36,117 bases of DNA from Campylobacteraceae bacterium (GTDB lineage Bacteria > Campylobacterota > Campylobacteria > Campylobacterales > Sulfurovaceae). Shown here one piece after another: positions 11,962-16,891 of this stretch (position 1 is its first letter; every line of letters begins with the position of its first letter). Below the pieces are notes generated by a model that saw nothing but the letters and a program-made list of their open reading frames with translations, did no database searches and was not told the DNA's origin. The stretch is from assembly GCA_027024155.1 (NCBI GenBank), contig JALVTE010000080.1:1-36117 (forward strand). Direction: 5' to 3'. Both the position numbers and the translations under genes were made by a program.

Positions 11962-12325
11962 GGGGGTGACTTGGTTTCGACTGGAGTAGTCGGGGCTATG
12001 TGCATGTCGGACTGGGCAATTCCGTTACGCGGCCCATTTATAATAAACGCAAACAATACAGATTATCGTCCAGCTTACGCAGCAGCGTAAGTTTAACTAA
12101 CTTTGGACCGTCTCACCGGCGAAAGTTGCAATAGCCGGATTCGAGGCGTCACCGCGTGCAACTATATCTACAAAGCGCCATCTTTGTAGACGAACCTTTT
12201 GGCTGGTTGTGTGTAGCTTTGGGTGTTGAGCAAAGCACAACGAGACCTATCAACACCGACTAAGCATGTAGAGTCATAGCTCTAGCTATTTCAGGACACG
12301 GGTTCAATTCCCGTCGCCTCCACCA
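11962..12325 (+). ncRNA. ssrA: tmRNA (SsrA)
   Basis: Transfer-messenger RNA rescues ribosomes stalled on broken mRNA and tags the nascent peptide for proteolysis. The 5' GGGGGTG pairs with CGCCTCC just before the terminal ACCA, forming the 7-bp acceptor stem. The conserved TTGGTTTCGACTGG follows the 5' stem, and GGGTTCAATTCCC is the T-arm. The tag frame runs from GCA at 12049 to TAA at 12088-12090 and encodes ANNTDYRPAYAAA, closely related to Helicobacter (VNNTDYAPAYAKAA) and Campylobacter tags. CCA is encoded. It is a one-piece gene of about 364 nt, a normal size. The 3' end is a common integration site for genomic islands, and an accessory segment starts immediately downstream. Confidence 0.97.
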
Positions 12326-12648: not shown

Positions 12649-14673
12649 ATGGCAGGATCAATAGAATCAAATATTGCACTTTTAGCGAATGGATGGCTAA
12701 AATCTTATGGATTAAGTGCCAAGCTAGAGCAAGAGTCTTTAAATTATGAAATAGATAAAGCTCTTAAAGAGTATGAATCTAAAGGTGGTGGAAAGGGTGG
12801 TAATCGTCCTGATACAAAACTTATTTTAAAAGATAAAAATGGAAATTATTTCCCAATACTTATTGAGTATAAAGGAGTTAAAAATAAGCTAGAAAAACTC
12901 GATTCTAATGGCGAAGTTCAAAACAGAACAGCCAAAAATGAGCCACACTATAAAAATATAAAAGAGTATGCTGTAAATGGTGCAGTTCATTATGCTAATG
13001 CTATTCTTCATCATACAAGCTATACCGATATTATTGCTATTGGAATGACAGGATACAAAGATTCATCTGGAAACATTCAACATCAAATAGCAGTCTATTA
13101 TGTATCTAAAAAGAATTTAGGTGTAGGACAAAAAGTTGGAGAATTTTCAGATCTTTCCTTTTTAACACCTGCTAATTTTGATAACTTCATTGAAAAAGTT
13201 AATAATTTAGATTTAACACCCGAAGAGTTAGACAGACTAAAAGCTCAAAAAGAGAAAGAGATTGATGCAAGTTTGGTTAAGCTTAATAACGATATTTACC
13301 AAAAAGAGAAAGGGCTCGGAGAGAATGACCGTGTATATCTAGTAGCTGCTTCAATTATTGCAACTATTGGAATACCTGGCAAGGTTCCTGTATTAGAAAA
13401 AGAGGAACTAAAGTCTCAAACTTTTGAAGGCGGAAGAGATGGCGATATTCTACTAAATAGAATAAAAGCTTTTTTAAGCCACAAAAACATTCCACAATCG
13501 AAACAAGATTTAATTATAAGAACTCTATCCAATACTCTTTTGACTGAAAATATTAACAAGGTAAAAGATGGAGAGAGCCAGTTAAAACGAGTATTTGTAA
13601 AGATTATTGATGATTTAGGAATTTATTACAAGATAGGATTAACAACCGACTTTACAGGTAAGCTATTTAATGAAATGTATAGTTGGCTTGGCTTCTCGCA
13701 AGATAAGCTTAATGATGTTGTATTGACTCCTGCTTATGTGGCTACACTACTAGTAAAACTTGCTAGAGTTAATAAAGACTCTTTCGTATGGGATTTTGCT
13801 ACTGGCTCAGCAGGATTACTTGTTGCAGCAATGAACGAAATGCTAAACGATGCCAAAAGAAGCATTAACTCTCCTAATGAATTAAAAGAGAAAGAGGCAC
13901 ATATAAAAGCTAATCAACTGTTAGGATTAGAGGTGCTTCCCAATGTATATATGCTAGCAATTCTTAATATGATTTTAATGGGAGATGGAAGCTCAAATAT
14001 CTTAAATGAAGATTCATTAATAGATTTTGATGGAAAGTATGGTTATGGAAAAACAGATAGTAAATTCCCTGCTGATGCTTTTATTTTAAATCCTCCTTAT
14101 TCTGCTGATGGAAACGGTATGAACTTTGTAGAAAAAGCTCTTGGAATGATGAGTAGAGGTTATGGGGCTATTATTATCCAAAATTCAGCAGGTAGTGGAA
14201 AAGCAACGGAGTACAACAGAAAAATACTCAAAAAGCATACTCTTATAGCAAGTATAAAAATGCCTGTAGATATATTTATAGGTAAGTCTAGTGTTCAGAC
14301 CAATATCTATGTATTTAAAGTAGGTGAGCCTCACCATAAAGACGATACGGTTAAGTTTATAGACTTTTCAAATGATGGCTACACAAGAAGCAATCGTAAA
14401 AAAGCAAGTAATAATCTAAAAGATACCGACAGAGCAAAAGAGAGATATAAGGAGTTAGTAGATTTAGTTAGATTTGGCAAAAGAAAGCTCAATATCTTTA
14501 CTGAAAAAGAGTACTATGAGGGAACTATTGACCCAACAAATGGGAATGATTGGAATCAATCAGCACCTGTAGATACAAAACCTACTTTGGAAGATTTTAA
14601 AAAGACGGTAAGTGATTATTTGGCTTGGGAAGTTACTACTATTTTGAAAAAAAGAGGTGATGAGGGAAAGTAG
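12649..14673 (+). CDS. BcgI-like fused restriction nuclease and N6-adenine methyltransferase (A subunit)
   Basis: This 674-residue protein resembles the A subunit of Type IIB BcgI-like systems (about 640 residues), where one chain both cleaves and methylates. The N-terminal nuclease region carries Pro54-Asp55 (RPDTKLIL) and, 17 residues on, Glu73-Tyr-Lys75 (PILIEYKG), a PD-(D/E)XK arrangement. The methyltransferase part has the SAM motif DFATGSAG from Asp382 and the catalytic NPPY at 481-484, the form typical of N6-adenine enzymes of the HsdM class. The C-terminus has a family-like KFIDFSNDGYTRSNRKK region. AGGGA precedes the ATG. The specificity gene follows directly. An isolated methyltransferase or a Type I HsdM is less likely because of the nuclease motif and the absence of hsdR. 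Confidence 0.85.
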   Translation: MAGSIESNIALLANGWLKSYGLSAKLEQESLNYEIDKALKEYESKGGGKGGNRPDTKLILKDKNGNYFPILIEYKGVKNKLEKLDSNGEVQNRTAKNEPHYKNIKEYAVNGAVHYANAILHHTSYTDIIAIGMTGYKDSSGNIQHQIAVYYVSKKNLGVGQKVGEFSDLSFLTPANFDNFIEKVNNLDLTPEELDRLKAQKEKEIDASLVKLNNDIYQKEKGLGENDRVYLVAASIIATIGIPGKVPVLEKEELKSQTFEGGRDGDILLNRIKAFLSHKNIPQSKQDLIIRTLSNTLLTENINKVKDGESQLKRVFVKIIDDLGIYYKIGLTTDFTGKLFNEMYSWLGFSQDKLNDVVLTPAYVATLLVKLARVNKDSFVWDFATGSAGLLVAAMNEMLNDAKRSINSPNELKEKEAHIKANQLLGLEVLPNVYMLAILNMILMGDGSSNILNEDSLIDFDGKYGYGKTDSKFPADAFILNPPYSADGNGMNFVEKALGMMSRGYGAIIIQNSAGSGKATEYNRKILKKHTLIASIKMPVDIFIGKSSVQTNIYVFKVGEPHHKDDTVKFIDFSNDGYTRSNRKKASNNLKDTDRAKERYKELVDLVRFGKRKLNIFTEKEYYEGTIDPTNGNDWNQSAPVDTKPTLEDFKKTVSDYLAWEVTTILKKRGDEGK

Positions 14674-14732
14674 ACACCCTGCTTGACGAAAAGTTAAAAA
14701 GCGTTGAGTGGGGTGAGTATAAGTTAGGTGAT
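14660..14732 (+). other. Lost 5' coding end of the specificity gene (apparent frameshift)
   Basis: The specificity-subunit frame stays open upstream of 14733 back to a TGA at 14661. It reads VDTLLDEKLKSVEWGEYKLGDL, exactly what should precede the FEI that begins the called protein. That stretch contains no in-frame ATG, GTG or TTG; only a CTG at 14679. An ATG at 14660-14662 overlapping the methyltransferase end lies in another frame: ATG AGG GAA, then AGT. Removing one A from the AAA at 14667-14669 would join it to GTA GAC ACC CTG and give MREVDTLLDEKL. This fits a one-base insertion in a short A-run. Confidence 0.6.
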
Positions 14733-15782
14733 TTGTTTGAGATTAACTCAAGTAAAAAAATTTATCATGCAAAGGAAATTAATAAAATATTTGATGGCAA
14801 AGTAAATAATAGTTTTCCTTATGTAGTCAGAACAACACAAAATAATGGACTTAGAGGATACATTATCGAGAATGAATTATATGCAAATGATAAAAATACA
14901 TTATCTTTTGCACAAGATACATTTTCTGTTTTTTATCAAAAAGAAAAATACTTTACAGGTAATAAAGTTAAAGTTTTAAAAGCAAAATTTGAAAATTGTA
15001 ATGAAAAAGTTATGCAATATTTAACTGCAAGTTTTCAAAAATCATTAAGAAATTCTACTTGGGGATTAGGTTCTACTGTTTCATCAATAGCAGAAACCAA
15101 AATAGAACTTCCAATAGAAAATAATGAAATAGATTATGAGTTTATGGAAAGTTTTATAGCTCAAATAGAAGAAGAACGGATAGAAAAGCTAGAAGCCTAT
15201 TTAGAAGTTAGTGGATTAAAAGATTATGTTTTGACTGTTGAAGAACAAAAAGCTTTAGATGATTTTGGAAATATTGAATTTGAAGAGTTTAATGTTATAG
15301 ATATATTTGATGTCAAAAATGCAGGAAATATCTTATCCAGAGATATTATTAAAAATAGTGGAGAAACTCCTTACTTATGCGCAAGTAGTGAAAATAATGG
15401 GATAAGTTCATATATTTCTTATAATGAAGAATATCTTGATAAAGGAAATTGTATTTTTATTGGAGGTAAAACTTTTGTTGTAAGTTATCAAGAAAAAGAT
15501 TTTTATTCAAATGATAGTCATAATTTAGCTTTATATTTAAAAAATGAAGAAAAGAATAAATTAAATCAATTATATTTAGCCACTTGTATCAATAAAGGTT
15601 TGGGATACAAATATTCTTGGGGTAATAGTATAAGTAGTAGAAAAATTCAAACAGATAAAATTTCACTTCCTATCAAAAATAAACAACCAAACTACAAAAT
15701 AATGGAAACCCTAATTTCAGCTATTCAAAAACTAGTTATAAAAGATGTTGTTTTGTATGTTGAAAAAAAGATAGAAGGATAA
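14733..15782 (+). CDS. BcgI-like specificity (S/B) subunit with two target-recognition domains
   Basis: The 349-residue product (BcgI B is 341) is the DNA-recognition partner of the upstream nuclease-methyltransferase. It has two target-recognition domains of the HsdS type (PF01420), at about residues 1-130 and 185-325. Each ends in a helical conserved region: DYEFMESFIAQIEEERIEKL near 135-155 and NYKIMETLISAIQKL near 320-335. Both domains carry the STWGLGSTVSS / YSWGNSISSRKI motif near their ends, as expected for an internal duplication recognising a bipartite site. The only standard start is TTG at 14733, inside the domain's first conserved motif, so the natural N-terminus is probably missing through a frameshift (see 14660-14732). 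Activity is therefore doubtful. Confidence 0.8.
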   Translation: MFEINSSKKIYHAKEINKIFDGKVNNSFPYVVRTTQNNGLRGYIIENELYANDKNTLSFAQDTFSVFYQKEKYFTGNKVKVLKAKFENCNEKVMQYLTASFQKSLRNSTWGLGSTVSSIAETKIELPIENNEIDYEFMESFIAQIEEERIEKLEAYLEVSGLKDYVLTVEEQKALDDFGNIEFEEFNVIDIFDVKNAGNILSRDIIKNSGETPYLCASSENNGISSYISYNEEYLDKGNCIFIGGKTFVVSYQEKDFYSNDSHNLALYLKNEEKNKLNQLYLATCINKGLGYKYSWGNSISSRKIQTDKISLPIKNKQPNYKIMETLISAIQKLVIKDVVLYVEKKIEG

Positions 15783-15786
15783 TTAT

Positions 15787-15885
15787 ATGAAAAAAGATTT
15801 GACAACTTCAAGTGTCAGCAGAGAAAATATTTTAAATAATCATTATGCTTTAGAAAAAGTAGAATTACATCTTGCTCTTGAGTAG
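15787..15885 (+). pseudogene. 32-codon gene stub downstream of the specificity gene
   Basis: A short frame begins at ATG 15787, four bases after the specificity stop, and ends at TAG 15883-15885. It encodes MKKDLTTSSVSREN, ILNNHYALEKVEL, HLALE. The close spacing suggests a third gene of the operon. The product looks like the N-terminus of something longer, cut off at TAGTAG followed by unrelated non-coding sequence. I do not recognise the family with certainty and assign no function. Confidence 0.4.
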
Positions 15886-16505
15886 TAGAGGTCAGTAGTA
15901 GGGGTCAGACATTGAATATCCACTTTTTAAACCATACCACCCTAATAAATAGCTAAACCATTGGCTATTCCTGCACAATTTGAGATTTTCGGAAATAGAG
16001 ATTTATTTAATTGTAGCGTTATAAACCTGTGTTCAATGGAGTATCACAGTCACAGAAGCCTAAAAATAGGTAAGATTTTTTAAATCAAATTCGTAGGACT
16101 AGCTTTTGCTAATTCAAGAATTTTATTTGAGAAAGATTGCCTATTTTTAGACTTCCATTTCGGCTTTATGAGGTTTCACATATACTTAGACATATTTTTT
16201 CGAATTAGTATAGCTAGTCCTTCAAAAATATGTCGTTGTCTATGACAAACCTTGAAAAGCTGTGGCTATGATACTCCATTGAACTCAGGTTACAATGAAC
16301 TGTTTTAAGCCGTAGGCTGAGTTTTGTATTTTTAGTGGAAATTAAATAAATCTCCCGAAAATCTCATCTCTTGTGCGATTTTTTTGTTTCGTTTTTTCTA
16401 AACAAAATGAAAAAGAGACCTATTTTACAGAGATATGGCACAAGGTGAAAATATTATCCCCATAAAGAACTTTAAATATGACGACATATGTGGCATAATA
16501 CACTT
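15886..16505. other. Non-coding stretch with inverted-repeat element and possible insertion scar
   Basis: There is no gene in this 620-bp stretch. Directly after the stub lies AGGTCAGTAGTAGGGGTCAG (15889-15908), a direct repeat of GGTCAG that may be an insertion scar or element end. From 15973 to 16376 is the nested inverted-repeat element described separately. From 16377 to 16505 I see only AT-rich sequence. Confidence 0.5.
15973..16376. repeat. About 400-bp element of nested and crossing inverted repeats (MITE or structured RNA candidate)
   Basis: The outer arms 15973-16012 and 16339-16376 are inverted copies sharing GCACAA, TGAGATTTTCGG and GAGATTTATTTAATT, apart from small gaps. A second pair, 16025-16055 and 16260-16290, matches at 28 of 31 positions. 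Inner pairs are 16055-16073 with 16137-16155 (CTAAAAATAGG core), 16096-16117 with 16201-16220 (GGACTAGCT and TAATTC cores), and 16162-16200 with 16224-16260. The third and fourth pairs cross, so all cannot form at once without a pseudoknot. No coding frame explains it. It could be a non-autonomous transposon, a nested insertion relic, or a structured RNA. Confidence 0.65.
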
Positions 16506-16593
16506 ATGATTAGAACATTTAAGTATAAATAGACTAGAAAAGTTACCAGACAAAAGAGAAGGTTTTACGGAAGAATGCCAAATTAGGAGTTAG
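16506..16593 (+). pseudogene. higB: Remnant of a HigB toxin gene
   Basis: Two pieces of a HigB/RelE-family toxin lie back to back. The ATG at 16506 starts MIRTFKYK then TAG, matching the usual HigB opening MIRTFKHKGLE. Immediately after, in another frame from 16531, comes RLEKLPDKREGF, matching the mid-protein block that usually reads RLHKLKGDR-x-G, then a stop at 16591. The middle of the gene is deleted and most of the C-terminal active-site region is gone, so no toxin can be made. Confidence 0.6.
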
Positions 16594-16645
16594 AGATGAA
16601 AAAATAGCACCAATACACCCGGGGGAGATACTTTTAGAGGAGTTT

Positions 16646-16891
16646 ATGAAGCCTTTAGGTATAAGCCAAAATGCTTTAGCAAAATCGTTAAAAGTGACAC
16701 CAAGAAGAATAAACGAAATAGTAAATAAAAAACGAGCAATTACTGTAGATACCGCTATGCGACTATCAAGATTTTTTGGAAATAGTGCAGAGTTTTGGAT
16801 AAATTTACAGTACAAATATGAATTAGAATTAAACAGAGAGCTTTACGAAGATAAAATAAAAAATGAAGTAGAGCTATTTGTAGCTTCTTAA
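16646..16891 (+). CDS. higA: HigA-type antitoxin, probably lacking its native start
   Basis: This helix-turn-helix (XRE) protein of the HigA family normally neutralises HigB and represses its own operon. The HTH runs over ISQNALAKSLKVTPRRINEIVNKKRAITVDTAMRLSRFFGNSAEFW, a strong HigA/VapI match. The ATG at 16646 gives 81 residues but begins inside the family's conserved opening. The same frame upstream reads APIHPGEILLEEF just before it, with no ATG, GTG or TTG back to a stop at 16535. An ATG at 16575 would supply MPNLGVRDEKIAPIHPGE if one T were restored at 16583-16584. With the toxin also deleted, the locus looks decayed; a shortened HTH protein may still be made. Confidence 0.72.
   Translation: MKPLGISQNALAKSLKVTPRRINEIVNKKRAITVDTAMRLSRFFGNSAEFWINLQYKYELELNRELYEDKIKNEVELFVAS

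Follow-up and report, generated by a model that had tools for sequence, protein, structure and literature searches.

Two palindromic repeats, one inside the other

What kind of element is formed by the dense inverted repeats at positions 15973-16376 of a 36,117-nucleotide contig (the window, meaning the whole stretch that was analysed) from a Campylobacteraceae bacterium? The original prediction counted at least five inverted-repeat pairs packed into these 404 bp, two of them crossing, and offered two inverted insertions of one element or a structured RNA with a pseudoknot among the explanations. A repeat search, shuffling and folding demonstrated that the packing of at least five pairs is real and far above chance. 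Four inverted-repeat axes scored 12 or more, as compared with a mean of 0.017 and a maximum of 1 in 300 dinucleotide shuffles, and the top axis scored 23 against a shuffle maximum of 15. Folding of both strands, which had been proposed as a check, gave z-scores of -12.9 (+ strand) and -16.4 (- strand), and 0 of 100 shuffles were as good; there were 12 G-U pairs in the + fold of the window and 7 in the - fold.

The repeat search yielded outer arms at 15981-15992/16355-16366 and 15998-16012/16340-16354 (both 100% identical), a second pair of 32 nt at 16024-16055/16260-16291 (91%), then 16055-16092/16118-16155 (82%) and 16163-16199/16224-16260 (76%), and the crossing pair 16090-16104/16212-16226 (87%). 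The earlier list of pairs matched this search, although some of its coordinates fall in the middle of an arm.

Further genomic copies, as sought in the original prediction, were found when the 404 bp were used as a query against the host genome (G000), and they formed two separate sets of matches. Bases 1-53 and 322-404 matched jointly and without interruption at 11 other places, with a degenerate twelfth copy on contig C16. Bases ~47-320 matched as a block at four other places (C2, C42, C19 and C121), with a partial copy on C31. By these copy sets, the outermost pair represents one repeat family and the remaining pairs another. The 404 bp are made up of two dispersed palindromic repeats, one of which sits as an insertion within the other. 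No pseudoknot is needed, each tip pairing inside its own arm in the consensus fold; 16090-16104 pairs with 16212-16226, tip against tip, and seems to cross because both arm tips share a motif in opposite orientation. The features are the following.

15949..15968, + strand: 5' hairpin of the outer repeat, ATAGCTAAACCATTGGCTAT, read from the sequence; its stem varies among copies with pairing mostly kept
15973..16023, + strand: rod of the outer repeat, left half up to the insertion point (11 uninterrupted own-genome copies and the degenerate one on C16)
16022..16023, + strand: left TA beside the inner element; an extra A stands between TA and ACCTG in the window copy
16024..16291, + strand: inner element of 268 bp, a two-armed, TA-flanked putative MITE, AACCTG...CAGGTT (copy alignments)
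16024..16055, + strand: left terminal inverted repeat of the inner element (repeat search); terminal 10 bp 96% identical in 15 copies
16055..16155, + strand: arm A, with its tip in sense on the + strand (repeat search, consensus fold)
16093..16117, + strand: tip A, GTAGGACTAGCTTTTGCTAATTCAA (motif scan)
16155..16163, + strand: linker between the arms, CCATTTCGG here and CCCTTCGGG or close to it in most aligned copies
16163..16260, - strand: arm B, with its tip in sense on the - strand (repeat search, consensus fold)
16200..16223, - strand: tip B, GAAGGACTAGCTATACTAATTCGA, which gives the 'crossing' pair with tip A
16260..16291, + strand: right terminal inverted repeat of the inner element (repeat search)
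16291..16292, + strand: right TA, its T common to the terminal repeat (read from the sequence)
16293..16376, + strand: rod of the outer repeat, right half (host-genome copies)
16377..16418, + strand: 3' tail of the outer repeat, a T-run followed by a weak palindrome, TTTCGTTTTTTCTAAACAAAATGAAA; sequence kept among copies

No ORF of at least 60 aa is listed between 15783 and 16542, so that the inner element shows no coding capacity. A scan of 15700-16700 found no terminator and 12 promoter-like sites versus 4.2 expected. A type IIG restriction-modification gene and its specificity subunit (12649-15782) adjoin the element, with a tmRNA gene (11962-12325) just upstream of this restriction system. 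On the other side, the HTH_3 gene at 16646-16891 looks like HigA, and no toxin-like ORF is listed directly before it.

The intact outer repeat measures about 137 bp in the alignment of host copies and consists of a 5' hairpin with a covarying stem, a rod, a T-run and a conserved tail (copy alignment and consensus fold). As a query, it matched in 12 of 99 genomes, its own and those of relatives, partial matches included. Five of the seven pairs of the 5' hairpin (alignment columns 10-28) had two-sided changes in some copies, and the tail palindrome was absent from the consensus fold. In the rod, 40 cells were kept paired through a one-sided (G-U) change versus 6 A-C cells, on a consensus fold computed on the + strand, which favours a G-U excess; this excess would suit transcription of the + strand. 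The one outer-repeat locus searched in Rfam had no relevant match.

The window copy of the outer repeat is placed between the type IIG restriction system and the HigA-like gene. Among proteins hand-picked beside the outer copies, and as raw counts, toxin-antitoxin-type Pfam matches were found next to six of the 11 uninterrupted copies of the host genome (C85 right, C98 right, C10, C100, C39 and C60, the last below the curated cut-off). PADLOC matches lay beside two further copies (a DrmD-like helicase and a TmtA-like protein at one, a DUF234 ATPase at the other). One copy adjoined a Y1_Tnp match, a weak one, and near another copy two small genes had no match. Inverted pairs of outer repeats also flank accessory genes at two loci, a DrmD-like helicase and a TmtA-like protein in one case (L095:4014-12257), dynamin-like and phospholipase-like genes in the other (L096:3362-8601), where they may mark the boundaries of cassettes. 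In another genome (G009, L093:2915-4328 and L094:2607-4042), outer repeats on the same strand recur at a spacing of about 1.25 kb, and between them stand small genes whose products start with MSGAFVHLFN, a start that occurs in polymorphic-toxin modules. The T-rich tail terminates other palindromic elements with different rods as well (L104-L108; G048, G032), and these resemble CGTC-type REPs.

Ends, insertion and probable transposase of the inner element

The inner element is best read as an IS630/Tc1-mariner-type MITE. It matched in 28 of the same 99 genomes (own and relatives, partial matches included) and in neither the plasmid nor the phage collection. The TA target-site duplication of such elements was found: all four other full copies in the host genome have an exact TA on both sides, and the window copy has TAA (one base more) before ACCTG and TA after CAGGT, its left TA being off by one. 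In the complete genome G040, ten of 11 fetched regions had TATTACC at both ends, some with a single-base difference, and the eleventh (L369) had other ends; nine of the 11 were aligned. Matches to this end pattern paired 272 bp apart, save unpaired or weak ones and one bare 58-bp palindrome, and no autonomous copy was seen among the pairs. At a Sulfurimonas MAG locus (L297) the element splits a YbhB-like gene, and removing it while keeping one TA restores an open frame to the stop of that gene. Among 15 inner copies, identity was 96% in the terminal 10 bp, 86-88% in the tips, 81-83% in the arm stems and 74% in the inner part of the terminal repeat.

The ends are not the same everywhere. In the host genome itself, arms occur on TAACCTGAG ends and on TTACCG ends (C24, C76). 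Elements in Gammaproteobacteria mostly begin with CTAG, as CTAGTGGTTC... in Microbulbifer and CTAGTACTCC... in Thiodiazotropha, Sedimenticola and others. Arm-bearing elements have TA flanks in Campylobacterota and Gammaproteobacteria and, it appears, TAA flanks at two loci of Desulfobacterium and Nitrospirae. Inspection by eye of three loci whose ends are of the GGACCC or GGGTTC type showed TAA on both sides (L234, L253) or on one (L250), which would suit another transposase family, though this is suggestive only.

Bare palindromes of 54 to 58 bp might be taken for the 'empty' site that the arms first entered; they are read instead as deletion products, because the C16 form of the host genome keeps the right-side GTGG and an 81-bp form in G035 keeps part of arm B. 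For the perfect 54-bp form of G035 and the 58-bp form of G040 this reading is tentative. At two loci (L041, on G005:C151, and L057) a further short hairpin is inserted near an arm tip, a third level of nesting.

IS630 uses TA within CTAG. A search for its transposase domain (PF13358) in 24 tip-bearing genomes gave matches in ten, eight of these above the cut-off. In one gammaproteobacterial genome, G115, the ends of an arm-bearing element (L264, GTACTCCTTCAA on both sides) are shared by an IS630 copy (L325, GTACTCCGACAA and GTACTCCATCAA after CTA), whose transposase is broken into several frames. In 37 genomes of the window's own family, PF13358 had no match. Among 31 arm-carrying Campylobacterota genomes there was any match in five and one above the cut-off in three; at the seven loci concerned, the ends of the local elements were not found at the transposase borders. 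At L407 in G048, one of the PF13358 loci, CTAGTACACC lies near one edge of the transposase frame, like gammaproteobacterial IS630 ends and unlike the local elements, and a second end was not found there. An autonomous copy with matching ends was sought in Campylobacterota and not found. The IS630 reading thus has direct support in one gammaproteobacterial genome and extends by inference to the group to which the window belongs.

Hairpin arms and their tip motif

Both arm tips carry the same motif of about 25 nt, GNAGGACTAGCnnnnGCTAATTCRA. One transcript shows just one tip in sense, because the two face opposite strands. Compensatory changes among copies, the test set by the original prediction, were found. 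RNAalifold, applied to 15 inner copies from nine genomes (alignment A3, i.e. the 16 copies of A2, several of them reversed, with the G005 copy carrying a tip insert left out), gave 108 pairs; in 49 of these, one or more copies differ on both sides. A separate alignment of tip and stem (A1) comprised 27 distinct rows chosen for at least six of eight flanking pairs; 94% of its cells were paired, 98 cells were two-sided versus 28.1 in shuffles, and pairing dropped to at most 52% when the alignment was slid. These rows were selected for pairing, and matches taken without that selection agree on covariation. Among the 122 tip matches listed, 105 had 30-nt flanks, with at least six of eight flanking pairs in 79 and fewer in 26. 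In these listed matches, stem positions 1-8 and 11 paired above shuffles with many two-sided changes, and positions 9, 10 and 12 were mostly unpaired. Within the tip, a G-T pair was kept in 26 of the 27 rows of A1 and a C/A mismatch persisted. These findings suggest that it is the fold rather than the sequence that is being kept, the tip motif being near-constant in several phyla while the arms vary.

The remark that differences between arms often allow G-U pairs was mildly borne out. With 210 of 218 arms kept and grouped in 43 clusters, the tip-sense strand was richer in G-U in 26 clusters, poorer in 10 and tied in 7. Many A arms and single arms showed this excess clearly; several B-arm clusters lacked it or showed the reverse. 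The preference is modest and differs by arm type.

Scanning named genomes for AGGACTAGCN{3,5}GCTAATTCRA gave at least 117 stretches. Those listed include many Campylobacterales and also Chromatiaceae, Thiodiazotropha, Sedimenticola, Microbulbifer isolates, Legionella, Saprospiraceae, Desulfobacterium and more. At least one listed match, in Leptolyngbya, looks like chance; it is inside a long coding frame. Seven exact matches on viral contigs had 1 to 3 of the 8 flanking pairs and were therefore read as chance. Searches with a covariance model built from A1 used strict filters and scored no more than 13 or 14 candidates in any genome. Of 397 Campylobacterota genomes, 55 had matches, spread over 21 of 68 genera. 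In the class to which G102 belongs the model matched 20 of 369 genomes, and three of them (G102, G104 and G115) had supplied loci earlier; this class is taken as Gammaproteobacteria because G102 is a Thiodiazotropha MAG. Several of the listed tip matches (L192, L194, L198, L202, L215, L257 and L261) lie within 50 bases of a contig end; assemblies may break in these hairpins, which would make copy numbers in MAGs underestimates. Both halves of the tip, searched in open-licence PMC text, returned papers on other subjects only.

We considered the possibility that the arms are functionless: repair templated by the hairpin, or conversion of one arm by the other, would keep the palindromes complementary, and the tip would be left over from one old element. 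Among 62 of 68 distinct tips, kept for having at least four of eight Watson-Crick pairs, the 8-bp stem was Watson-Crick in 407 of 496 cells (15 were G-U and 5 A-C), as correction of one arm by the other predicts, and the shortened palindromes show that arms can be lost. Yet positions 9, 10 and 12 are mostly unpaired across many genera, and persistence of the C/A mismatch and G-T pair of the tip counts against arm correction, because this would be expected to erase them. We regard functionless arms as rather unlikely.

The inner element might also be a structured RNA gene, the copies of which spread as genes or by general recombination, without a transposase. The strong covariation, the conserved tip and the commoner G-U pairs on the tip-sense strand would fit such a gene, whereas the TA flanks and the insertion within the YbhB-like gene, the near-identity of the last 10 bp and the opposite strands of the two tips would not. 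Rfam 15 had no relevant match either: the whole window at gathering scores returned the tmRNA only, and four tip-bearing loci, searched with E up to 1, returned five weak matches, all far under gathering scores. An RNA gene of this kind is improbable.

If the tips were GTAG-type REPs, the element would belong to the repeats of REP/REPIN type, and a Y1 (RAYT) transposase would move it. The tip does form a short and imperfect hairpin whose 5' foot reads GNAG, and it occurs in inverted pairs; Y1_Tnp matches were found in 38 of 60 related genomes. However, N is T in just eight of the 62 distinct tips kept, tips occurred in only one (L149) of 18 Y1_Tnp neighbourhoods, a subset of those matches, the nearest being about 1 kb off, and the element ends in TA-flanked terminal repeats. 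We consider this origin very unlikely.

Finally, that a single element was inserted twice in inverse orientation is scarcely credible, since arms A and B, though sharing the inverted tip motif, have stems of different length and different internal loops and recur side by side (tips ~128-134 bp apart in most two-armed loci), and for the outer and inner repeats it is refuted by an outer repeat unrelated in sequence and with its own copy set; what stands of the two-insertion proposal is that there are two elements, a MITE within an unrelated rod-shaped repeat.

It is highly probable, in our view, that the locus consists of nested repeats, of which the inner one is a TA-inserting MITE moved in trans, with covarying arms and a tip kept across phyla. 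In the mechanism that we propose, this 268-bp element would be a non-autonomous transposon, and a transposase, most likely of IS630/Tc1-mariner type, would move it in trans via its terminal repeats. Between the ends stand two hairpin arms presenting the same tip motif in opposite orientations. Compensatory change maintains the arms, and the tip is nearly constant across phyla on elements with different ends. The arm, and with it the tip, would work as a folded single strand, either a transcript or ssDNA, and some widespread factor may recognise the tip. More tentatively, the capped arm, with its tip and with internal loops spaced at a constant distance, could be a transposon-independent structural module, carried by MITEs with unrelated ends, on which a widely conserved host factor or a hairpin-recognising enzyme acts in RNA or ssDNA form, aiding spread or tolerance.

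MITEs are usually regarded as defined by the ends that a transposase binds. Here the ends vary, and what persists from phylum to phylum, with compensatory changes, is an internal fold and its tip. If true, this would mean that small transposons depend on, or exploit, a common structure-recognising factor, and the tip would provide an exact search handle. A covariance model now exists for this repeat family, which had no Rfam match in the loci searched.

Comparison with known repeats

It is common for MITEs to be nested, but unusual for a structured tip to be conserved in several phyla on elements that differ in their ends. Long palindromic, hairpin-forming MITEs have been described in the gammaproteobacteria Candidatus Thiomargarita and Coxiella burnetii, and the arms resemble them (PMC4853749, PMC5896051). 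Those of Coxiella are transcribed according to the cited part of the Coxiella paper; the string GGACTAG is absent from its main text, and both sets of elements are compared here by description (PMC4853749, PMC5896051).

Sulfurovum sp. NBC37-1 is named, in the cited part of PMC3733652, as carrying both GTAG- and CGTC-tagged REPs. Like these, as described there, the tips are short imperfect hairpins found in several phyla. Unlike them, the tip caps a long arm, GTAG is in the minority, and a RAYT lies nearby at one of 18 loci (PMC3733652).

The CIR repeats of Caulobacter and its relatives, which are alphaproteobacteria, measure about 110 bp and contain the motif GANTC, as presented in the cited section of PMC2229807. 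They too have two inverted-repeat arms, a linker and a conserved motif at one terminal loop, but their motif, length and alphaproteobacterial hosts set them apart by description (PMC2229807).

The same section of PMC2229807 describes RUP of Streptococcus pneumoniae as a 107-bp repeat, an IS630/Tc1-mariner-derived MITE, with no other signature of structure or function. The inner element is like RUP in being short and TA-inserted with terminal inverted repeats, and its likeness to IS630 MITEs extends to ends that match an IS630 copy in one gammaproteobacterial genome. It differs from RUP as described there in having two arms, a conserved tip, covarying stems and carriers with different ends (PMC2229807).
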